This document shows positions 1-13,865 of a stretch of DNA of 64,000 bases, in pieces (position 1 is the first letter of the stretch; every line of letters starts with the position of its first letter). The stretch comes from a bacterium (GTDB taxonomy: Bacteria; AUK180), in NCBI GenBank assembly GCA_023144005.1, contig JAGLGN010000024.1:36588-100587 (forward strand). The letters run 5' to 3'. The notes below the pieces were generated by a model, which was not told the DNA's origin, did not search any database, and worked only from the letters and a program-made list of their open reading frames with translations. The position numbers were made by a program, and so were the translations under genes.

Positions 1-1164
1 TTCATAATTCCAAACAAATTCATCCATTCAAACTATGGAAAAGGATTGAAGAAAGTGATTCTTAAAAGGAATATCCGTGTAATAACAGACTTTGGCGACA
101 TCCAGATTTTCTCTAATGCGACAAATTATCCATGTATTCTAATCATTAGAAATAATGAGAAATGGGATTCTTTTAAATATAATAAAGTAAGTCATATTTT
201 ATCCGAAAGGTTCTCGTACAATGTACTTGAGATTAATCAGAAAACACTAAATACTGATTCTTGGTTGCTAATATCGGAACGTGAAGGCAAAATAGTAAAG
301 AAAATAGTTTCAGATAACATTCCCTTAAAGAAAATATCTATCGCAATAACCCAAGGAATAAGAACGGGCTTGTTAACAATTTTCTATAATAACATTAATA
401 AGGAATTTGTTCGCTTAAGAAAAATAGAAAGGAAGTTAATCAAACCAATTTTCCATGGAAAAAATGTGAAAAGGTATTATTCAACAGTTGATTTTAACAA
501 TGATATAATGTTGTTCCCCTATAAAGACGACTGTAAATCACCTATTGATATCAATGAATTTCCAAATACTAAAATGTATTTAGAGGGATATAAAGAAAAG
601 CTGTTATCTAGAAAGGATTCGGGTAAAGTATTTAGGAATGTTAACAAGAAATGGTTTGAATTTTGGGATTCGAAGTACATTTCGTTTACATCACCAAAAA
701 TCGTGTTCCCCGACATATCAAAGGCCAATAACTTCTATTTAGATGAAGACGGGATAGGGTATTTAAACACTTGTTATGCTATTATTTTAAAAGAAGCAAG
801 TATGTATAGGTTCGTTCTGGGAATATTAAACTCAACTTTAATTGAGTTTTTTATAAAGAAAAACAGTCCTTACATTAGAGGGGGATATTACCGCTATAAG
901 ACAAAGTATATTGAGAAAATACCAATTCCTTATATAGATAATTCTGACTTGAATTTCATCCCATCGTACAACAAGATAGTTGATTATGTAGATCGGATGC
1001 TTCTGTTCCAAGGGAAATATCATTCAGCAAAGACGGAACAGGACAAAGAACTCTATCAGAAACAAATTTACGTCTTAGATAGGAAGATCGATGACCTTGT
1101 TTATAAATTGTATGGATTGACGGATGAAGAGATTGAGATTGTAGAGGGAAAATTTAAGAATTGA
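1..1164 (+). CDS. Type IIG-like N6-adenine DNA methylase, 3' part (cut by window edge)
   Basis: The frame is open from base 1, so the gene starts outside the window; a TTG at 46 is only an internal codon. The first residues read FIIPNKFIHSNYGKGLKK, the segment that normally follows the NPPY catalytic motif of Eco57I/TaqI-type adenine methylases. The rest resembles a TaqI-like C-terminal target-recognition domain: a KPIFHGKNVKRYY segment (about residue 145 from base 46), then LGILNSTLIEFFIKK and KIPIPY near the end. The catalytic domain and any nuclease domain lie to the left and cannot be judged, so a BREX PglX-like or stand-alone type IIG enzyme are both possible. The stop overlaps the next gene by 4 bp (TTGA), implying co-transcription with the SIR2 gene. 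Base composition is strongly A+T-rich. Confidence 0.8.
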   Translation, partial: FIIPNKFIHSNYGKGLKKVILKRNIRVITDFGDIQIFSNATNYPCILIIRNNEKWDSFKYNKVSHILSERFSYNVLEINQKTLNTDSWLLISEREGKIVKKIVSDNIPLKKISIAITQGIRTGLLTIFYNNINKEFVRLRKIERKLIKPIFHGKNVKRYYSTVDFNNDIMLFPYKDDCKSPIDINEFPNTKMYLEGYKEKLLSRKDSGKVFRNVNKKWFEFWDSKYISFTSPKIVFPDISKANNFYLDEDGIGYLNTCYAIILKEASMYRFVLGILNSTLIEFFIKKNSPYIRGGYYRYKTKYIEKIPIPYIDNSDLNFIPSYNKIVDYVDRMLLFQGKYHSAKTEQDKELYQKQIYVLDRKIDDLVYKLYGLTDEEIEIVEGKFKN

Positions 1165-2126
1165 GAAGCAGAAGAGAAAAACCAATTGATTTCTCATCAG
1201 AAGAATACAGAGAATTTGTGTCCAAGGTTAAAGTTGAAGGTGCATATTTCTTTATTGGTGCGGGTTTTGCCAAATTATTGGATTTTCCATTATGGTATGG
1301 ATTAGTAAATGAGCTTGTTCAATATTTCTGGGAGAATCGCAGTCAAATTAAACGAAAAAAACTTACATTTAGCCATATAGAGAGTCTGAAGAATAATCAG
1401 AGATATGCATATGTCATGGATTATCTCTTTTCGCTAAATAAAGAGTTGTTTTACAGTGGAGTAGAAGAAAGCCTAGGAAAAGAACTCAAATCCGAGGCGA
1501 AAGAAAAAATTTATTTCCTTCGAAAACTTTGCAGAGCCCGCTTTCCAGATAAAACTCCAAAATATCCTATATTGACAACGAATTTAGATACATCTATCGA
1601 AAAATGTTTTAACATTTCTAATGTTAATTATTCTCAAGAGACATTTATTGATGATGTGACAAGTCAGATATTTTATCTACATGGGAGAATCCATTCACAA
1701 AAATGTGATGATAGGGACCGAAGAAAAGACTGGATATTGACTCAAGAGGATTATTTGAATCAATATCTAAGTGAAATCAGTAAATTAAATGTATTTCTTC
1801 AAAATATATTTAATAAGAAAACAGTTATCTTTGTTGGTTATGGTTTAAAGGAATTCGAAATTCTTCAGGCGATTGCGAAAAGAAATTCAATTGCAGAGAA
1901 AGAATTCAGAATTCAGCATTACGCATTTCAAGCGATTTATAAATTAAACGAAAACGAAGTAGAAGTAAATGAAAAGGTCTTGAAAGATCGGTTCAATATA
2001 CATTTATTGAAATTTGGCATTGAACTATCAGGATGGGATGGACTAATGCATAATTTTAGTTATTTAGTTGATGCAATATGTGATGAAGAATATCCAGAGC
2101 CAGGAGATAGTAAAAGTGAGCAGTAA
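1161..2126 (+). CDS. SIR2-family defence protein (putative NAD+ hydrolase)
   Basis: A 321-residue protein starting with TTG that overlaps the methylase stop. SIR2 hallmarks are visible in order: GAG at residues 33-35 in FFIGAGFAKLL, the TTNLD motif with the catalytic-type Asn at 141, FYLHGRIH with the catalytic-type His at 174, and FVGYGLKEFEIL (about 224-236), the usual second nucleotide-contact segment. Related bacterial SIR2 proteins (ThsA, DSR and SIR2-associated systems) cleave NAD+ during phage infection; that activity is inferred here from the family. There is no extra N- or C-terminal domain apart from a short tail, so a sensor or partner must be separate. The next gene, a TIR protein, overlaps its end by 11 bp, which points to coupled translation and a joint role. 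Confidence 0.85.
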   Translation: MRSRREKPIDFSSEEYREFVSKVKVEGAYFFIGAGFAKLLDFPLWYGLVNELVQYFWENRSQIKRKKLTFSHIESLKNNQRYAYVMDYLFSLNKELFYSGVEESLGKELKSEAKEKIYFLRKLCRARFPDKTPKYPILTTNLDTSIEKCFNISNVNYSQETFIDDVTSQIFYLHGRIHSQKCDDRDRRKDWILTQEDYLNQYLSEISKLNVFLQNIFNKKTVIFVGYGLKEFEILQAIAKRNSIAEKEFRIQHYAFQAIYKLNENEVEVNEKVLKDRFNIHLLKFGIELSGWDGLMHNFSYLVDAICDEEYPEPGDSKSEQ

Positions 2127-5100
2127 AGTATTTATATCGTACTCGAGTAAAGATAAAGAATTTGTAAAAAAACTTATAAGAGAATTGAACAGGAAAAAAG
2201 TAAATATCTGGATAGATGAGTTTGAGATAAAAGTAGGTGATAGCATAATTGAAAAAATCACGGAAGGCTTATCCGAAAGTTCATATTTGATTATTGTGCT
2301 TTCAAAGCATTCTTTGAAAAGTAAATGGGTTGAAAAAGAGCTAAAGATCTCGTTAATGCTTCAACTCAACAAGGGAGCAATAAAAATCTTCCCGCTATTG
2401 TACAAAATAGACTTTGACGAAATCCCACTATTTTTGCAAGACATTAAAGGATTAAAAATTGATGATGAAATTTCTGAAAACGCTATATCTGGGTTGATAG
2501 AACCAATATTACACTCTCAAAAAGGTGTAAGCGTTCTAGAATTGCAAAGTACCTTTTTTCGGGGGGCGGAATATATTGATGAGATTCTACTTGAAGAGAA
2601 TCCTTCAATAAAGAAAGTTAATGTGGTAATCGAATTACTATCAAAGGATTCTTTTAGGAATTATTTTCTAAAGAGAGTGAATAGTGTTGAGTGGTTGAGT
2701 TTATTGCAGAAACTAGGTTACTTTAATCCTATAAATATTCCAAATGTCGAAGAGCAAGTAATTCGAGGGCAAAAAACGAGAATGATTCCATTTTGGCGGC
2801 CCTTGACTTATTTGGAGCTTCTATCATCCAGACCTTCAAATGATAGACGAATTCAGGATAGTTTGGTAGGAATTATAAAAGATGTAAGTGAATATATTTA
2901 TACTCATGAAGAGAAATATGATAATAGAATCTTCTGGTATTTCATAAAAATATTAAGCAATTTACCAGAAGAGCTAATCACAAATGATGTTATTGAGCTT
3001 ATTCCAAATTGGGTTAGACTAAATTGGGATCGTCATTTAATCTCTTCTGAAATAATGGAGAACTTGTTACCCAAATTGTTAAATGAAAATCAGAAAAAAG
3101 CTTTAAAACTTATTCAAATTATAACTAGTGTTGTAAAGATCAAAGAGGAGAAATCAGTGTTTTCTCCAGGATATTCTTTTGAATTGCTTCTAGATAAATA
3201 TTGGCTTGAAGAAGGATTCAAGAAAAACTCAGAATTGATTACAGAGAAATGTGGAGTTCATGCAATAAAGAAAATATTAGAAAACATTGATGTAATTTTA
3301 AGGAAAAGTGAAACAAGTATATATTTCGATGAGGATGAAAAGGAATTAGTATTTAAAGAAAGGAAAACTCATTATATGCTATCCTATGAAAGTAGGCAGG
3401 TCGATATTAAAAAAAATGAGATTGATAATATATTTAGTGATATATTGGAAAAGGAACCCTTGAGGGTTCTATCTTCTTCCAAGGAATTCAAGTATATTAA
3501 TTCAAAGGTTCATAAATTGATGAGAAATCATTTCGGTCTTGGAACTTGGAATAGTTTTTGGGACGACAAGGAATATGCACTTGATTCATTAGATGTATTA
3601 ACGAAAATAATAAAAAATTTAGCTCTGGAAATTGTGAATATGGAAGAATACTTGGATGACCTGTTTAAATTACTTCCGGAATTTCTAATAGAGAATTATT
3701 TATATTACCCGAAATTTGCATTATATATTATTGGCTGTAATGTCAAAGCTTTCTCCGAAGTGTTTGTGCAATTTGTCGGTGAGAAGTATTTGTATATATT
3801 CGAATCAACTGAATTTCACGATGAAATCCGACACATTTTGGAAGGTCTTCAGAATTATAAAGAGGAAATATTAACAGGAAACATTTTAGAAAAGTTGGAA
3901 ACTCTTATTAACAAGATACCACAGTATCATTATTATCTTGATGATCCTGATGGCTATGGAGAAGACGTTCGGCAACGTTACTATAATGCTCTTTCATGGT
4001 GTCCCAAATATGAAAAAATGATTACAAAAGAAACTAAATTGGCACCAATAATTGGCAAAGCAATAGTTACAACAGGTATCCCCGAAAAAGATCAGTACAT
4101 AATATCAATTGAGGAGCTTAATCGAAAGAACAATAATGAGATTTCAAAAATATTGAAGAATAAGAAAACATCAAATAGTGAGTTCTGGCGGATATTTGAA
4201 ACAGCAATATCAATAGAACCTTTTAAATATAGTATTGACATGAAACCTTTTCGGAAAGCTCCATATTGCCAGTTAGAAGCTCTTTTTAACGGATTTGAGA
4301 AGGCAATAAAGGATGGAAATAGGGATAAGATTAAATTCGAAAATCTATTGAACTTTATTCAAGAAATGCTTGAAGATGAGGAATTTTGGCTAGATAAGTA
4401 TAACACTAAGAATTATTGGGGCTCCTCTAAGCATACCGATGTTTTAAGAGAGATTTACGACTTGTTATCCAAAATACTGCATGAGACCACAGAAATTTAT
4501 GCCAATTACTCTGAAATGATTATAGACATATTGTCTAGATTACTAAAATCGGAACTTTCAGAGATTGGCTTGAAGAGAAATTTGGAAGTAACAGGGGACA
4601 GAGACATTCTAAACTTCATTATGTTAAATAACTCAGCTTCTGTACTTAGAGTGGGATTTTTCCTGCTATTAAAGCTAATGAATTTGAAGAATCCCAAATA
4701 TTCTGAAAATATAAGACATCTCAAAGGGATTCTGCTAAAAGAAATGGATATTTTGATAAAAACAAAGAACGTGGTGGGATATTCAATACTTGGATATTTT
4801 GCTACAAATTTTCTTGCAATAGATAAGGAATATATTGAAAGGCATGTAAATAGTGCAATGCGTCTGAATGATATTGAAATATGGAAGTACTTTATGGAGG
4901 GATATATTTGCCGTTCACTATTGAATGAAGATTCATATCTTCTTATGAAAGAGAATCTGTCTTATGCACTGGATAATATGGACATTATTGAAGTAAATTC
5001 AAGAGAACGCTTGATTCAGCAGCTATCACTGTACTATTTATGGGGATATGAAGGCACCTCATCAGGTTTATTATATAATCTGCTTATGAAAAATAATCCT

Positions 5101-5634
5101 GAATACATAACAGAACTGCTATATTATTTATGGTCATTGAAAGATGAAATTCTCATGAGGGATAGAGAAAGGGGAGAAAAGGGAGGATCGAGGATACTAG
5201 AAATCTGGAAATGCATTTACGAGGAGTATAAGGAAATCCCGAAAGAAGAATTGACAGATGATCAGAAAAAGATGCTATCAGTTTTGGGAAATCTTGCGGT
5301 TTATTTGGTTGAGCTTAAGAAGTCATTTAAATTGCTCAAACTATCAGCCCCTTGGAGTGATTATTATTATAACTCCCACTACTTCATAGAATATATAAAT
5401 AATTTAAAAAATAAAGGTAATAATCATACAGAATCTGCAAAGTACATAAGTGAAATCTATTTAGCGATGCTTGCTGAGTCAACGCCAACATACTACGAAG
5501 AACACATAATCGAAATAGTTGAATACCTGTATCGAAATCCACCCTCAAAGAAAGATGCAGATAGGATTTGCAATATTTATGGAGAAAGGGGTAATAACTT
5601 CTTGAAACCAACTTATGATAAATATAATAAATAA
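2116..5634 (+). CDS. TIR domain protein with about 1000-residue helical C-terminus
   Basis: The preferred start is GTG 2116, with AGGAG at 2102-2106, giving 1172 residues; upstream in-frame codons to 2068 lie inside the SIR2 gene and add a non-conserved leader. The N-terminus is a TIR domain: SSKVFISYSSKDKEF (2-16), IWIDEFEIKVGDSI (31-44) and SKWVEKEL (69-76), the last carrying the Glu of TIR NADases at about residue 75. From about residue 150 onward the protein is a long, Leu/Ile/Lys/Glu-rich, mostly helical chain with recurrent Trp- and Tyr-rich turns, likely an alpha-solenoid. I see no P-loop, so it is not an ordinary STAND/NACHT TIR protein. It probably senses a trigger through the solenoid and degrades NAD+ through TIR. 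The next gene begins 9 bp downstream behind AAGGAG. Confidence 0.8.
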   Translation: MSSKVFISYSSKDKEFVKKLIRELNRKKVNIWIDEFEIKVGDSIIEKITEGLSESSYLIIVLSKHSLKSKWVEKELKISLMLQLNKGAIKIFPLLYKIDFDEIPLFLQDIKGLKIDDEISENAISGLIEPILHSQKGVSVLELQSTFFRGAEYIDEILLEENPSIKKVNVVIELLSKDSFRNYFLKRVNSVEWLSLLQKLGYFNPINIPNVEEQVIRGQKTRMIPFWRPLTYLELLSSRPSNDRRIQDSLVGIIKDVSEYIYTHEEKYDNRIFWYFIKILSNLPEELITNDVIELIPNWVRLNWDRHLISSEIMENLLPKLLNENQKKALKLIQIITSVVKIKEEKSVFSPGYSFELLLDKYWLEEGFKKNSELITEKCGVHAIKKILENIDVILRKSETSIYFDEDEKELVFKERKTHYMLSYESRQVDIKKNEIDNIFSDILEKEPLRVLSSSKEFKYINSKVHKLMRNHFGLGTWNSFWDDKEYALDSLDVLTKIIKNLALEIVNMEEYLDDLFKLLPEFLIENYLYYPKFALYIIGCNVKAFSEVFVQFVGEKYLYIFESTEFHDEIRHILEGLQNYKEEILTGNILEKLETLINKIPQYHYYLDDPDGYGEDVRQRYYNALSWCPKYEKMITKETKLAPIIGKAIVTTGIPEKDQYIISIEELNRKNNNEISKILKNKKTSNSEFWRIFETAISIEPFKYSIDMKPFRKAPYCQLEALFNGFEKAIKDGNRDKIKFENLLNFIQEMLEDEEFWLDKYNTKNYWGSSKHTDVLREIYDLLSKILHETTEIYANYSEMIIDILSRLLKSELSEIGLKRNLEVTGDRDILNFIMLNNSASVLRVGFFLLLKLMNLKNPKYSENIRHLKGILLKEMDILIKTKNVVGYSILGYFATNFLAIDKEYIERHVNSAMRLNDIEIWKYFMEGYICRSLLNEDSYLLMKENLSYALDNMDIIEVNSRERLIQQLSLYYLWGYEGTSSGLLYNLLMKNNPEYITELLYYLWSLKDEILMRDRERGEKGGSRILEIWKCIYEEYKEIPKEELTDDQKKMLSVLGNLAVYLVELKKSFKLLKLSAPWSDYYYNSHYFIEYINNLKNKGNNHTESAKYISEIYLAMLAESTPTYYEEHIIEIVEYLYRNPPSKKDADRICNIYGERGNNFLKPTYDKYNK

Positions 5635-5643
5635 GGAGCAAAA

Positions 5644-6774
5644 ATGAATCTGAATGTCTTCCATGATAAGGCATTGAAAATACCAATTAATTATGCTGGA
5701 AATATTATTAATCAATTGGACAAGCAATACAAGAAATACTTCGATTTCCTAGAAACAAACAAAAACCATGAATTGTTTAAAGAAGTGTGGAAAGAAATAA
5801 GAACTATCAGAAATATTTCAAAAGTAATTATCAAATCAATAGAATATTTCTATCATGGCAAAAAGAATGAGGGATATCGTGGTGTCAAGCATATATTTGA
5901 TAAATACCAACACCATGCTGCATATCTATTGAAACCAGTCACGGGTCCTTTATTTCGTATCCGTATAAGCTCGAATTATTCTCTCGATATTTGTGACCTC
6001 CTTCATATTCCTTTTGAGAAAAGATACTTAATTTCTAATCAGAGATACAGTATTTCAGGAATCCCGTGCTTATACTTGGGGAGTTCAATGTACGTGTGCT
6101 GGGAAGAGATGGCGCGACCCAACTTTAATGACATTCATTGCATTTGCCTAGTTCCCAAGGAAACTATTTCGATACTTGATTTTAGTAAGACACCTCTTGA
6201 TTATATCAAAGATTTTGATCTTAGGAATCGTCCTTCAGAGAATGGAATACCACCAGAAGAAATTAAATATGCAATTTCTTACTTCATATTTTTCCCACTT
6301 ATAATCTCCTGCTGCTTAATACCCCAATATCGTAATTCAACATTTTTTCCAGAATATATAATTCCACAATATCTTATGGAATATCTAATCCACTCAGATA
6401 TCGACGGTGTTTCATATACATCAGTGAGGAAAAATAGTGAAAATTCTGATAGCAGATTATGCGCAAATTACGCATTTCCAAGCAAAACGCCGAAAAAGAA
6501 AGGAATAGACAGAAAACTTATGGAGAAGTTCTACACCACAACGCCATATTCATATTATTGTTCGTTTTTGGAAACAATGCATTTCAAATCAACACCCTCA
6601 AGGAGGGATAATCAGGGATGGCGATTGTATTTAACATCAAATACAGGTGCTGCACATTATGAGTTTACGGAATTTCACTTATTCGAAAGCTTTATGATAG
6701 AAAAATATAGGCGTGATAAATACTACTTAAACCGACAAACATGGAAGAAGGCATTAGAAGGAGTTAATAAATGA
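5644..6774 (+). CDS. RES domain protein (putative NAD+-degrading toxin-like enzyme)
   Basis: A 376-residue protein, preceded by TAAGGAGCAAAA. Residues 1-100 are a helical region, possibly the HEPN/RES N-terminal type. The RES core follows: LFRIRI (103-108) with the conserved Arg, RYSISGIPCLYLGSS (134-148), CWEEM with the conserved Glu at 154/155, and IIPQYLMEYLIHSDIDGVSYTS (239-260) with the conserved Ser. RES toxins such as MbcT break down NAD+ and normally sit beside an Xre/MbcA-type antitoxin. None is visible here; instead the stop overlaps the start of an OLD-type ATPase gene (ATGA). This makes it more likely an effector of a multi-gene defence operon than a classical toxin-antitoxin toxin. 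The 110 residues after the core are unassigned. Confidence 0.8.
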   Translation: MNLNVFHDKALKIPINYAGNIINQLDKQYKKYFDFLETNKNHELFKEVWKEIRTIRNISKVIIKSIEYFYHGKKNEGYRGVKHIFDKYQHHAAYLLKPVTGPLFRIRISSNYSLDICDLLHIPFEKRYLISNQRYSISGIPCLYLGSSMYVCWEEMARPNFNDIHCICLVPKETISILDFSKTPLDYIKDFDLRNRPSENGIPPEEIKYAISYFIFFPLIISCCLIPQYRNSTFFPEYIIPQYLMEYLIHSDIDGVSYTSVRKNSENSDSRLCANYAFPSKTPKKKGIDRKLMEKFYTTTPYSYYCSFLETMHFKSTPSRRDNQGWRLYLTSNTGAAHYEFTEFHLFESFMIEKYRRDKYYLNRQTWKKALEGVNK

Positions 6775-8327
6775 TACAAGAAATAGTACTAAATAATAAC
6801 AAAGGGATCAAGAAATTAAAGCTATCTAACTTAGGAAAGATAAATGTCTTTGTAGGTAGAAACAATTCCGGAAAAACTGCCATATTAAATGCAATACTGG
6901 AAAAACACCTTATTCAAGCAATGGAGGCTATGTTTAATATAGGAATTTACCAGGAACTGTATGCTAGTTTGGACGACAAGTCTAAATTTGATTTTGAATA
7001 TTTTTATCAGTTTATGAAGTCATTTGAAAAATACTTCAAGCAGAATATAGGAGAATTTTCATTCAATCGAAATCGAGAATCGGAGGCAACCTTTCTAATT
7101 CAAAGACTTAAAGGTTTCGTTGGCATATCTAATTCAAAAGTTCGAAGTGATTATTTGGGTAAACAAACAAAATTTAATACTACTCTTAAGAATGAATTTC
7201 AGAAAAATAATACGGTAGTATTCTTTGATTCAAAAAGGGCTTTAGCCGATGAATTTTCAATTTCCAATTCGTTCAATTATGTAGATATTATTAATCCAAA
7301 ACAATTGGATGGAAAAGAATTCCTAACTTATTTACACTACGGTCGCAACCGGAAGAAGAGCTCATCTGAAAATAAAATATTTGCATTTATCAATGATTTG
7401 TTCGCAGAAATCACGCAAAATGCTGAATTCGAAATGGACTTAGAAGAGCAAAATCACAATACTAAGAATATTATTCTGTATTTCAAAGAAAGGTATCAAG
7501 ATGATAGTTATCCTTCAAAATATTGTGGAACTGGATATAAAGAGATTCTTCTCCTATTATTTGCGGCAGCAAATCCGAAATTCAAAACAGTTATCATAGA
7601 TGAACCAGAGAATTTTCTCCATCCTGAATTCCAGAGAAAGTTATTAGCTATTTTTAAAGATAAATCAGATAAACAGTATTTCATTGCCACACATTCTTCG
7701 GTTCTTTTAGATGAAAGATATGTTGATAGGATATTTCAAGTAAATAACTCTGGAGAAATCACTGCTGAAGAGATAACAAGCAAAGCGATCGTTCTAAATG
7801 AATTAGGATATTCACCAATCGATAATTTGACATCAGATTTGATAATTTTATGCGAGGGACCTTCGGACAAAAGAGTAATTAACGAAGTATTAGAAAAAAT
7901 GGAATTAACCGACAAATATAGTGTAAAATATTTGTTCTTGGGCGGTGATATCATGTCTCAAGTTGATGTCGATGTAGTTCTTCAGATAAGCAAAACAATC
8001 GCAATAATTGATTCAGATCCAGGGAGTAGAAAGGAAAGAAATCGTTTTAAAGAATTGTGCAAGGAGAATGGAATCCCATGCTATCAAACAAAAAGGTACG
8101 CCATTGAAAACTACTTCACAGTAGAAGCATTGAGGGAAGCGTTTGGTAGTAAAATTCCTTCAGAAATTGAAGAAATCAATCCAGATGAAAAACTGGAAAA
8201 GCAGATCGGGATTAACGTAAAAAAAGGTAATCAGAAGATTATTAAGGCTATGGCTATCGAGGATATCAAGGGAACGGATATCTATGAAGGTTTCTTTTTA
8301 AGAGTAAAAGAATTATTGGAGAGATGA
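6771..8327 (+). CDS. OLD-family ATPase with C-terminal TOPRIM domain
   Basis: 518 residues. The ABC/SMC-like ATPase half shows Walker A GRNNSGKT at 29-36, a signature-like GTGYKE at 253-258, Walker B VIIDEPENFLHP (Asp277, Glu278) and an H-loop FIATHSS (His308). The TOPRIM half shows LIILCEGPSDK with Glu362 and IAIIDSDP with Asp414/Asp416, the acidic triad of OLD nucleases. GajA of Gabija and the OLD nucleases share this plan. It begins inside the stop codon of the RES gene, so the two are translationally coupled. No UvrD-like GajB gene is next to it, so it is not a standard Gabija. It may act as a DNA-cleaving or DNA-sensing arm of the operon. Confidence 0.85.
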   Translation: MIQEIVLNNNKGIKKLKLSNLGKINVFVGRNNSGKTAILNAILEKHLIQAMEAMFNIGIYQELYASLDDKSKFDFEYFYQFMKSFEKYFKQNIGEFSFNRNRESEATFLIQRLKGFVGISNSKVRSDYLGKQTKFNTTLKNEFQKNNTVVFFDSKRALADEFSISNSFNYVDIINPKQLDGKEFLTYLHYGRNRKKSSSENKIFAFINDLFAEITQNAEFEMDLEEQNHNTKNIILYFKERYQDDSYPSKYCGTGYKEILLLLFAAANPKFKTVIIDEPENFLHPEFQRKLLAIFKDKSDKQYFIATHSSVLLDERYVDRIFQVNNSGEITAEEITSKAIVLNELGYSPIDNLTSDLIILCEGPSDKRVINEVLEKMELTDKYSVKYLFLGGDIMSQVDVDVVLQISKTIAIIDSDPGSRKERNRFKELCKENGIPCYQTKRYAIENYFTVEALREAFGSKIPSEIEEINPDEKLEKQIGINVKKGNQKIIKAMAIEDIKGTDIYEGFFLRVKELLER

Positions 8328-8420: not shown

Positions 8421-9173
8421 ATGTGGGAACATCACGTCGCGTTTTCAAGACCAGATGAAGAAGCTAAAATCTGGAGATACATGAACATACCAAAGTTTTT
8501 ATCTATAATAACGAGGAATCAACTTTTCTTTCCGAACTTATCTACATTCGATGATCCCTGTGAGGGACTAACTCCAGCAGAGACAAGAAAAGATTATGAA
8601 ATATTTTTTGAGCCCTATATTCATAGTGAAGATGATCAAGAGAGAGTGAACAAGCAAATTGAGAGCTTGATGAAGTTGCCTAGCGCTAATAAAGATTTGT
8701 ATTATGTATCTTGTTGGCATTTGAACATAGGAGAGTCTGATGCGATGTGGAGGCTGTATTCAAAACTTGGCGAAGGAATAGCTATTCAATCCACTTATGA
8801 TAGATTCAGAAGAAGCCTAAATAGTGCAGAAATTCCGATTCACATTGGGATGATCAAATATATAGACTATTCAAAAGAGAAAGTCCCAATTGGCAATATA
8901 TTTTTTCCACTTTTACGAAAACGATTAAGTTTTATACACGAGCAAGAAATAAGGGCTGTGGCACAAATTGAGAGGGAAGATCAAAAGGGCTTTACCGCCC
9001 TCACCGCTCGTGGAATTTATTTCCCTATCGATTTAGATATCTTAATTGATTCTATTTATATCTCTCCAAAGTCTCCTTTATGGATAAAGGAAATGGTGAT
9101 GGACATACTTGAGAAATATGAGATCAAGAAAAACGTAATTCAATCTGATTTATATTCAGAGAATCTATACTAA
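8421..9173 (+). CDS. DUF2971 domain protein
   Basis: 250 residues with a strong ribosome-binding site (AAGGAGGAG at 8409-8417). The sequence follows the DUF2971 pattern: IWRYMNIPKFLSII (15-28), LFFPNLSTFDDPCEG (34-48), YYVSCWHLNIGESDAMWRLYS (92-112) and IHEQEIRAVAQI (about 172-183). The biochemical role of this family is not established, but its members are frequent in accessory and defence-rich regions. It lies 93 bp after the OLD gene, so it may be the distal part of the same operon or its own unit, and 11 bp before the next gene, with which it is surely co-transcribed. Confidence 0.7.
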   Translation: MWEHHVAFSRPDEEAKIWRYMNIPKFLSIITRNQLFFPNLSTFDDPCEGLTPAETRKDYEIFFEPYIHSEDDQERVNKQIESLMKLPSANKDLYYVSCWHLNIGESDAMWRLYSKLGEGIAIQSTYDRFRRSLNSAEIPIHIGMIKYIDYSKEKVPIGNIFFPLLRKRLSFIHEQEIRAVAQIEREDQKGFTALTARGIYFPIDLDILIDSIYISPKSPLWIKEMVMDILEKYEIKKNVIQSDLYSENLY

Positions 9174-9184
9174 AAGGAGGAAAG

Positions 9185-9736
9185 ATGGCAATTGAATTAT
9201 TTAAAAATCAACAAATTAGTTGTCATGATCACGGTTATGTTAGGAAAAACGTGGAAAAGAGCGAATACCATCTTCATAAAACTTTTGGAAACAGAAAAGA
9301 TCAATGGGTAAAGATCTACCCCTTCCGAAAAGAGAAACTTGAATTTCCCAAAAACATTGACCTTGAAGAGAGAAAGTTAATCAAAAAGAAATTGGATAAA
9401 GAAATAGAACAAAATCCAGAAAAAATACAAAAGATATTTGAAAAACTCTATGATCAAGTAAAGCAATTGAAATCTTCAATGTCGGATGAATCTCTGATAA
9501 AATTCGCGAATGAGTTAGCAACTGAGTTGGGGCTTTCGAAGGCGATGAGTGTGTTTAAGAAGTCCTTGAAGAAATATATAGAATTTAGTACTACACATCA
9601 GGACAGAAATAGGACATACTATATTTCCCAGAAAATTTCAGCTCTAGACCCCAAAATTACAGTTGGAGAGGGTAAAATTGTTTATTATAAAAGCACCAAA
9701 TATAACGGGAGAAGGAGTAAGGGCAAAACTTACTGA
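9185..9736 (+). CDS. Hypothetical protein, defence-island associated
   Basis: 183 residues starting 11 bp after the DUF2971 stop with AAAGGAGGAAAG before the ATG. I do not recognise a family. It is basic and Lys/Glu-rich with a probable helical middle (about 60-140) that contains LIKFANELATELGLSKAM, reminiscent of a helix-turn-helix-like stretch but not convincing. The C-terminus is very basic (YNGRRSKGKTY), compatible with nucleic-acid binding. Co-translation with the DUF2971 gene suggests a two-gene unit. Confidence 0.55.
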   Translation: MAIELFKNQQISCHDHGYVRKNVEKSEYHLHKTFGNRKDQWVKIYPFRKEKLEFPKNIDLEERKLIKKKLDKEIEQNPEKIQKIFEKLYDQVKQLKSSMSDESLIKFANELATELGLSKAMSVFKKSLKKYIEFSTTHQDRNRTYYISQKISALDPKITVGEGKIVYYKSTKYNGRRSKGKTY

Positions 9737-11636: not shown

Positions 11637-11990
11637 ATGGAGAAGAAACCTTTTAACTGGGTGAAACTGATAGTAGCAGTTCTTTTGCTGATGTGTTCAA
11701 TTGCAATGCCCGTATACTCGATCATCTTCGTGGGATTCACGGTAATGATCCTGGTAAATTGGGGAATTGGAGCGGTAGTAGGATTCTTTCTGATATTCTT
11801 TTTGTACAAGATCCCATCGAAAAAAGTTCAGACGATAATGTGGTTTACACTGTTCGCCCTCTGGATCATATTGTCGGCTATCTTTAAGATGGATGTTTTT
11901 GTGAGTAATAGCGGCTTCCTTTTCGGAATAGTGATTTCCGGGCTGGTCTGTAAACAGAAAGCACAGGATAAAATGAAGAATGAAGAATGA
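11637..11990 (+). CDS. Small multi-pass membrane protein ending in a microsatellite
   Basis: 117 residues with a strong Shine-Dalgarno (GAGAGGAGGTAGGG). There are about four hydrophobic segments: LIVAVLLLMCSIAMPVYSII (11-30), a second at about 31-55, TIMWFTLFALWIILSAIF (66-83) and FLFGIVISGLV (93-104). Function unknown. The last codons (KMKNEE, stop) are encoded by the first copies of a 7-bp tandem array, so slippage in the array would shift frame and change only the C-terminal tail. Confidence 0.65.
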   Translation: MEKKPFNWVKLIVAVLLLMCSIAMPVYSIIFVGFTVMILVNWGIGAVVGFFLIFFLYKIPSKKVQTIMWFTLFALWIILSAIFKMDVFVSNSGFLFGIVISGLVCKQKAQDKMKNEE

Positions 11991-12079
11991 AGAATGAAGA
12001 ATGAAGAATGAAAAATGAAGAATGAAGAATGAAGAATGAAGAATGAAGAATGAAGAATGAAGAATGAGAAATGAAGAAT
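11975..12079 (+). repeat. 7-bp tandem repeat (GAAGAAT), 15 units
   Basis: Fifteen consecutive units can be counted, with two imperfect ones (GAAAAAT and GAGAAAT). The first two units overlap the end of the membrane-protein gene. Reverse-strand reading frames through it give only HSSFFIL-type repeats and are not genes. Confidence 0.9.
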
Positions 12080-12101
12080 GACGCTGCGCAGTGCACAAGC
12101 A

Positions 12102-12400: not shown

Positions 12401-12465
12401 TACAGGGATTATTTCCTTCCCAAACTAGCCTCCAACCTCTAACCTCTAGCCTCTTCATATATTTG

Positions 12466-12494
12466 TTGATTTAGAAACAAATTTAAACTATAAT
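12466..12494 (+). promoter_or_regulatory. Sigma70-type promoter
   Basis: TTGATT (12466-12471), a 17-bp spacer and TATAAT (12489-12494), 27 bp upstream of the ATG at 12522. Confidence 0.7.
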
Positions 12495-12521
12495 AAAGCG
12501 AATCGGGGGTACATTGAACCT

Positions 12522-13757
12522 ATGAAACGATTACTGGTATTCTTTTGTTTCACAATCTTAAGCATTACTATGTTCGGACGAACCATAATAGCGGTACAGG
12601 ATTTTACCGTAACGGATGTTCCTGAAAGCGCTGGAATGGTGTGTTCCGAAGAGATCAGGAACGTTCTAGTCAATAACGACACCTTAGAGGTCCTGGACAG
12701 GGGATCAATGACGGCGATCATGGCGGAGCAGAACCTCCAGCAGTCCGGCTGTACCGACGCTGCGTGTGCCGTTGAACTGGGTAAACTTCTGGCTGCTAAC
12801 ATGATAATCTTCGGATCCGTTACCAAGCTCGGTAAAACCTATTATTTGAATGTCAAGGGTGTGAATGTGGAGACGGCAAGGATAACTTTCTCAAAGAGCA
12901 GTCACAAAAAAGGTGAGATCGATGCGGTCATTGAGATGGCTCATAACATCGCTGTCGAGATCGACAACGAGAACTTCGGTGGTGAACAGGAAAAGGTCAC
13001 TGCAGAGAAGGAAGAATTGAAGGCGGCGAGTACAGGGGTATCTCCGGCAAAGGACCTTTATCCGCGGATGATGACGATACCGGCAAAGAAAGGAAAGAAA
13101 GCCGAAAAGATCCCGTCATTTGCCATTGGCGTTTATGAGGTTTCTAACCACCAGTATTTCGAGTATCTGAAGGATAGATCGAACGAACTTGCGAAAAAGG
13201 CCGCCAAAACGGGTGATAAGGAACTGTCCAAAAAGGCGAAGCGTCTTCAGGAGATGATGACATGGAAAAGATGGAAGGAGCCCGAGAAACCCGCCGCTGA
13301 ACTTAGATACGAAGAGGTTTTGGACTACTGTGAATGGCTTTCGACGAAAATGGGAAACACCTTCAGGCTGCCCACCGTAAAGGAATGGATCCACGCAGCT
13401 TCGGGTGAAAATAAAGACTTCCTCTACCCCTGGGGAGATGATTTTGACGGCACACGGTGCTGGTACAGGCTGAATACCGAGGATAAGATACAAGAGATAG
13501 GAAAACTCCCGCCCACCGGGTATGGCCTTTATGACATCATCGGGAATGTATGGGAATATACAAGTGACATCAAATACAATCAGAAGGACATTGAAAAAAA
13601 ATCAAAATATCCCCAGCACGAGGTCTATGTAAAAGGCGGATCATATCATTCGTATGTGGATGAGATGCACCTTAAATATGAAAAACTCCTTCGGATCAGA
13701 AGTTACTACAACAACGTTGGTTTTCGGGTTTTGATGGAAAATCCGAAGAAACGATAG
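12522..13757 (+). CDS. CsgG-like domain fused to a sulfatase-modifying-factor domain
   Basis: 411 residues with a signal peptide (MKRLLVFFCFTILSITMFG). Residues 20-150 form a CsgG/TolB-like assembly domain with IIAVQDFTVTDV, EVLDRGSMTAIMAEQ and a striking QQSGCT-DAACAVELGKLL motif (about 82-100). Residues 175-410 form an FGE/SUMF1-type C-type-lectin-like domain: FAIGVYEVSNHQYFEYL, RLPTVKEWIHAASGE, YPWGDDFDG, IGNVWEYTSD, VKGGSYHS and a closing GFRVL. The GFRV ending lacks the Cys of true formylglycine-generating enzymes, so it is probably a binding or scaffold domain. It likely acts in the periplasm or at the outer membrane. The same QQSGCT domain occurs at the C-terminus of the barrel protein at 29932. 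The gene is monocistronic with its own promoter. Confidence 0.75.
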   Translation: MKRLLVFFCFTILSITMFGRTIIAVQDFTVTDVPESAGMVCSEEIRNVLVNNDTLEVLDRGSMTAIMAEQNLQQSGCTDAACAVELGKLLAANMIIFGSVTKLGKTYYLNVKGVNVETARITFSKSSHKKGEIDAVIEMAHNIAVEIDNENFGGEQEKVTAEKEELKAASTGVSPAKDLYPRMMTIPAKKGKKAEKIPSFAIGVYEVSNHQYFEYLKDRSNELAKKAAKTGDKELSKKAKRLQEMMTWKRWKEPEKPAAELRYEEVLDYCEWLSTKMGNTFRLPTVKEWIHAASGENKDFLYPWGDDFDGTRCWYRLNTEDKIQEIGKLPPTGYGLYDIIGNVWEYTSDIKYNQKDIEKKSKYPQHEVYVKGGSYHSYVDEMHLKYEKLLRIRSYYNNVGFRVLMENPKKR

Positions 13758-13767
13758 GCGAATCGAA

Positions 13768-13865
13768 TATGCTGAGCTTGCTCAGCAAGTGTGAAGTGTG
13801 AAGTCTGAAGTGTAAAGTGGATAAGTACAATGAACAATTAATAAATGAACAATGAACAATGACCA
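13768..13865. repeat. Hairpin plus GTGAAG-word module and AACAATGA words
   Basis: A second copy of GCTGAGC-TT-GCTCAGC with AAGTGTGAAGTGTGAAGTCTGAAGT, followed by GAACAATGAACAATGACC words. It fills the gap between convergent genes. Confidence 0.7.

Follow-up and report, generated by a model that had tools for sequence, protein, structure and literature searches.

A separate SIR2 gene and a TIR-bearing sensor gene as a probable DSR1-derived anti-phage unit among stacked defence genes of an uncultivated bacterium

The window analyzed here, that is, the whole stretch of 64,000 nucleotides at C17:36588-100587, comes from a genome of 2.67 Mb in 38 contigs and opens with a run of defence genes on the forward strand. 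The run begins with the 3′ part of a gene encoding a Type IIG restriction-modification enzyme (1-1164), recognized by a profile match and its domains, followed by genes encoding a SIR2 effector subunit of 321 aa with a TTG start (1161-2126), a TIR-sensor subunit of 1172 aa with a GTG start (2116-5634), a RES-domain protein of 376 aa (5644-6774), and an OLD-like AAA ATPase-TOPRIM protein of 518 aa (6771-8327). The Type IIG and SIR2 genes overlap by 4 bp (1161-1164), and the SIR2 and TIR genes by 11 bp if the latter starts at the GTG at 2116, which is the most likely start and has GGAG upstream; a gap of 9 bp separates the TIR and RES genes, and the RES and OLD genes overlap by 4 bp. The five genes of the original prediction and each of its four junctions were confirmed when the open reading frames, domains, overlaps, and gap were recomputed. 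Beyond the span first noted, another stacked gene begins 93 bp past the OLD gene and encodes a DUF2971 protein (8421-9173, forward strand), a candidate single-gene defence in PADLOC (PDC-S31); it is followed by an ORF of 183 aa (9185-9736) to which no function was assigned. Farther downstream (11944-12095), AATGAAG-type 7-nt units are repeated in tandem, and spurious ORFs cross the repeat.

The GC content is 31.8% in positions 1-8327 vs 44.3% in positions 14000-64000. In a congener (G001, locus L098), the counterparts of window positions -14587 to -9983 and 12457 to 13838 stand only 607 bp apart, which shows that a block of about 22.4 kb (-9982 to 12456), including the defence cluster, is absent there and that the site is variable. 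Since this block also holds two more large genes to the left of the cluster, it extends beyond the defence genes proper. A promoter scan returned 64 sites vs 56.7 in shuffled sequences, a result that says little about internal promoters.

SIR2_2 (1.4e-15) is the sole Pfam family found in the 321-aa SIR2 protein, and the TIR protein carries a TIR_2 domain (1.5e-24; residues 5-111, window 2128-2448). Both proteins match the same PADLOC Dsr1 profile (PDLC04166, 1227 positions), the SIR2 protein at positions 27-253 (E 7.6e-26) and the TIR protein at positions 699-1225 (E 6.8e-70). In BLAST, residues 158-1171 of the TIR protein, comprising its DSR1-type C-terminal sensor region (window 2587-5628), align with residues 302-1355 of the fused DSR1 from genome G121 (E 1e-88, 28% identity over 1087 columns), and the SIR2 protein aligns with residues 12-280 of the same polypeptide; these alignments place the TIR domain at about the position where SIR2 stands or ends in fused DSR1. 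The match to the NCBIfam Dsr1 model was weak (18.6 bits vs a cut-off of 1400), and a fused protein reaching 1792 bits in PADLOC gave only 51 bits with that model. An AlphaFold model of the TIR-sensor protein from a two-row alignment, of low confidence (pLDDT 49, pTM 0.32), shows a mostly helical sensor.

The pair therefore resembles DSR1 in having an N-terminal SIR2 part like that of the Dsr1 profile, with its catalytic Asn and His, and a large C-terminal sensor region, in the same order and with nearly full-length homology. Unlike DSR1, it is cut into two overlapping genes, and its sensor subunit has gained a TIR domain. Because it is not a single polypeptide, we call it a split DSR1-derived variant and not DSR1 proper. 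DSR2 shares with it a SIR2 NADase with conserved Asn/His and a C-terminal phage sensor, but is encoded by one gene (about 1005 aa), and the C-terminal region of DSR2 shows limited similarity to that of DSR1 (PMC10973363). We consider it probable, at roughly 0.7, that window positions 1161-5634 encode a DSR1-derived anti-phage unit of two genes, one for a separate SIR2 protein and one for a sensor of about 1040 aa with a TIR domain at its N-terminus. This reading draws on the homology, the split itself, the recurrence of the pair, the kept overlap, and the intact catalytic residues. The gene order indeed differs from that of DSR, as had been predicted; that prediction missed that the SIR2 and TIR proteins together make up a split DSR1.

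A second TIR-bearing pair was found in a metagenome assembly of the same family (G004), with SIR2 and TIR-sensor proteins of 312 and 1190 aa (43% and 37% identity, respectively). Its genes also overlap by 11 nt, if the start is the ATG at TIR-protein residue 6, and it is flanked by housekeeping genes, with no Type IIG, RES, or OLD genes. A UPF0489 gene, missing from the window, lies 48 nt downstream of the G004 pair (L024:8849-9943). Because the pair recurs without the other three genes and both members are homologous to parts of DSR1, the SIR2 and TIR genes are, as judged from sequence, one system rather than two independent effectors. The 11-nt overlap points to coupled translation of the two genes and to a defined complex.

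Related loci show how the DSR1 parts are arranged elsewhere. Fused DSR1 is present in G147 (1238 aa, 1792 bits, PDLC04166 positions 1-1223) and G121 (1360 aa), and further fused copies in G017 and G537 are interrupted by contig ends. At the G017 locus (L026:977-6795), the gene immediately preceding the fused DSR1 likewise encodes a Type IIG enzyme. TIR-less split pairs, in which a SIR2 gene is followed by a DSR1-type sensor gene, occur in four genomes (G302, G495, G394, and G540) and on a Vibrio coralliilyticus plasmid, pOCN014 (WP_040122581 and WP_040122582, matching Dsr1 profile positions 5-301 and 311-1213, respectively); their genes overlap by 4 or 8 nt, apart from G540 with its 2-nt gap. 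The fused form and the TIR-less split form are therefore spread over unrelated taxa, with the Vibrio plasmid as one example. The TIR-less pairs are like the pair in the window in having a separate SIR2 gene, followed by a mostly overlapping sensor gene, and differ from it in the lack of a TIR domain on the sensor.

The sensor was found in 8 of the 386 genomes of the first sample, the window's own included, and in 4 of 398 genomes of one other phylum. Among the loci whose ORFs were read, which cover the hits in the 398 genomes only in part, the TIR domain stands on the sensor only in the window genome (G000) and G004, so that the TIR-bearing pairs number two, both from one family of uncultivated bacteria. 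In a sensor tree these two form one clade (100/100); the split forms do not, and the order from fused to split to TIR-bearing is not resolved by the tree. The DSR1-type sensor is linked to another N-terminal region in G247 and G403, and to a separate upstream gene in G519. At L042:6400-9459 and L071:4688-8212 it is fused to another N-terminal region in place of SIR2, and at L086:2781-6315 its SIR2 is replaced, apparently by a separate gene of 235 aa; Pfam gave no family for the L042 protein or the small L086 gene. As these loci pair the sensor with a non-SIR2 N-terminal region, the DSR1 sensor seems to be a module that can be reused. A contig scan with two short peptide patterns returned only the G004 locus, which is not evidence of rarity. 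Scans of viral contigs for the TIR protein, the sensor, and SIR2 came back empty, as did a tblastn search of phages with the sensor. No TIR-bearing split form appeared among the profiles or in the literature searched (partial coverage, with few subscription papers), and that literature had neither a split nor a TIR-bearing DSR1.

The predicted catalytic residues are intact in both NADase-type domains. The glutamate of the WxxxE stretch in bacterial TIR NADases is catalytic; in alignments to 7uxr and AbTIR (7uwg), Glu75 of the TIR domain falls on this residue, and it is kept in the G004 copy. Among solved structures, those nearest to the TIR domain are bacterial TIR enzymes, AbTIR being one. 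In the SIR2 protein, N141 and H174 are invariant in all 11 SIR2 sequences compared and align with N133 and H171 of DSR2, the double mutant of which serves as an inactive control (PMC10973363).

The C-terminal domain of DSR2 is the sensor, binding the tail tube protein of the phage, and its SIR2 domain carries out the destruction of NAD+ (PMC10973363). By analogy, the sensor subunit in the window should detect phage and activate SIR2 in trans. We infer that the SIR2 and TIR-sensor subunits would form a defined complex, and that the sensor would bind a phage component, which would free the SIR2 subunit, in trans, from inhibition and let the TIR domains assemble; NAD+ would then be depleted by SIR2, and probably by TIR as well, and the phage would cease to grow. 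The TIR domain is read most simply as a second NADase on the same sensor. TIR domains need oligomerization, and SIR2 in DSR2 and ThsA needs a destabilized assembly (PMC10973363). It is a tentative proposal, held at somewhat under even odds, that one phage sensor controls two NAD+-consuming enzymes with opposite modes of activation (release for SIR2, assembly for TIR), or that a TIR signal gates SIR2 in a DSR1-Thoeris hybrid. No description of a DSR1 trigger was found in the literature searched. According to a review, phage inhibition by DSR1 does not involve cell death (PMC10952713), so we do not claim abortive infection.

A Thoeris-like coupling, in which the TIR domain of the sensor makes a cyclic ADP-ribose-type signal upon phage sensing and thereby activates the SIR2 subunit, is unlikely, though the most probable of the alternatives. 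In Thoeris itself, a TIR protein that makes the signal works with a SIR2 NADase; the window likewise has a TIR gene beside a SIR2 gene, the TIR domain matches the ThsB_TIR profile, and SIR2 matches the ThsA profiles weakly. However, the SIR2 protein, with just SIR2_2 in its 321 aa, lacks the SLOG/STALD domain that forms the signal-binding part of ThsA, which makes such a signal less likely; its stronger match is to Dsr1, and the existence of TIR-less split pairs shows the TIR domain to be dispensable for SIR2-sensor pairing. The missing SLOG/STALD domain also rules out identity with Thoeris. Both systems have two genes, one SIR2 and one TIR, but ThsA has SLOG, ThsB carries no DSR1 sensor, and the pairing in the window follows DSR1 homology. 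The short Argonaute systems SPARTA and SPARSA likewise place a TIR or SIR2 NADase module on a sensing partner; unlike the pair described here, they have one kind of NADase per system and sense via APAZ/Argonaute.

It is slightly less probable still that the TIR domain is noncatalytic and acts in docking or oligomerization, with SIR2 as the sole effector. TIR domains self-associate, and this one stands at the place of SIR2 in fused DSR1, from which it could contact the separate SIR2 subunit and link it to the sensor; nevertheless, both copies keep the predicted catalytic Glu, and the nearest solved structures are enzymes such as AbTIR.

The Type IIG, RES, OLD, and DUF2971 genes are likely to be independent defence genes stacked around the split-DSR1 pair. 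Sequence to the left of the window supplied the remainder of the gene first described as a methylase: its start lies at C17:34629 (window -1958), and its complete product has 1040 aa. Eco57I, N6_Mtase, and TaqI_C domains are present, and the enzyme is a Type IIG restriction-modification protein and not a methylase alone. PADLOC profile PDLC03604 matches residues 9-1034 with 549.8 bits, in keeping with nuclease, N6-adenine methylase, and specificity functions in one protein, the nuclease being assigned solely from this full-length profile match. Judged from these matches, it makes a complete system of its own.

The RES domain scored marginally above the cut-off (1.4e-5). Ten loci with RES relatives were read from the 386-genome sample, plasmids, and phages: G332, yopC of SPbeta, the P2-like phage Cartapus, one unannotated phage contig, and plasmids of Chryseobacterium, Paenibacillus, Hymenobacter, Priestia, Ruminococcus, and Acetoanaerobium. 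None of the ten had relatives of OLD, SIR2, or the TIR-sensor by tblastn, a search of limited sensitivity for OLD, as its control recovered only two of five other OLD loci in the same genome. A small HTH gene adjoins RES in SPbeta (yopB-yopC) and on the Priestia plasmid; in the window, no HTH family was found in the genes adjoining RES, and a RES-Xre toxin-antitoxin identity is ruled out in the absence of an adjacent Xre/HTH antitoxin. The OLD-like protein has AAA_21/AAA_15 domains and a weak OLD-like TOPRIM match below the cut-off (0.0013), and its sequence displays Walker A (GRNNSGKT), Walker B, and the TOPRIM acidic motifs (CEG and DSD). Since the gene after OLD encodes DUF2971 and not a GajB helicase, identity with Gabija is ruled out. 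RES and OLD may form a pair of their own, of which no second example was found.

The prediction had allowed for either a single composite system or a stack of two or three, and stacking is what the evidence supports. A single five-gene system is very improbable: the junctions are tight throughout, the low GC content is shared, and all genes lie on one strand, but in G004 the SIR2/TIR pair stands apart from the other three genes, OLD, SIR2, and TIR-sensor genes are missing near all ten RES relatives, and the Type IIG enzyme needs no partner to be complete. The proposal of three independent NAD+-depleting effectors in one operon likewise finds no support, as SIR2 and TIR are homologous to parts of DSR1 and the RES relatives read lack OLD and DSR neighbors. 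SIR2 and TIR domains are known from many separate defence systems (PMC10952713), but chance adjacency of two unrelated genes can practically be dismissed, being refuted by homology: both halves align in the same order to one fused DSR1, the pair with its 11-nt overlap recurs at about 40% identity, and unrelated taxa repeatedly have split pairs that lack TIR.

A naturally split DSR1 allows the effector and the sensor to be studied apart. The added TIR domain would place two NADase domains on one sensor that are thought to be oppositely activated, SIR2 by loss of assembly and TIR by oligomerization (PMC10973363). SIR2 and TIR on a single sensor would make a testable and unusual combination.
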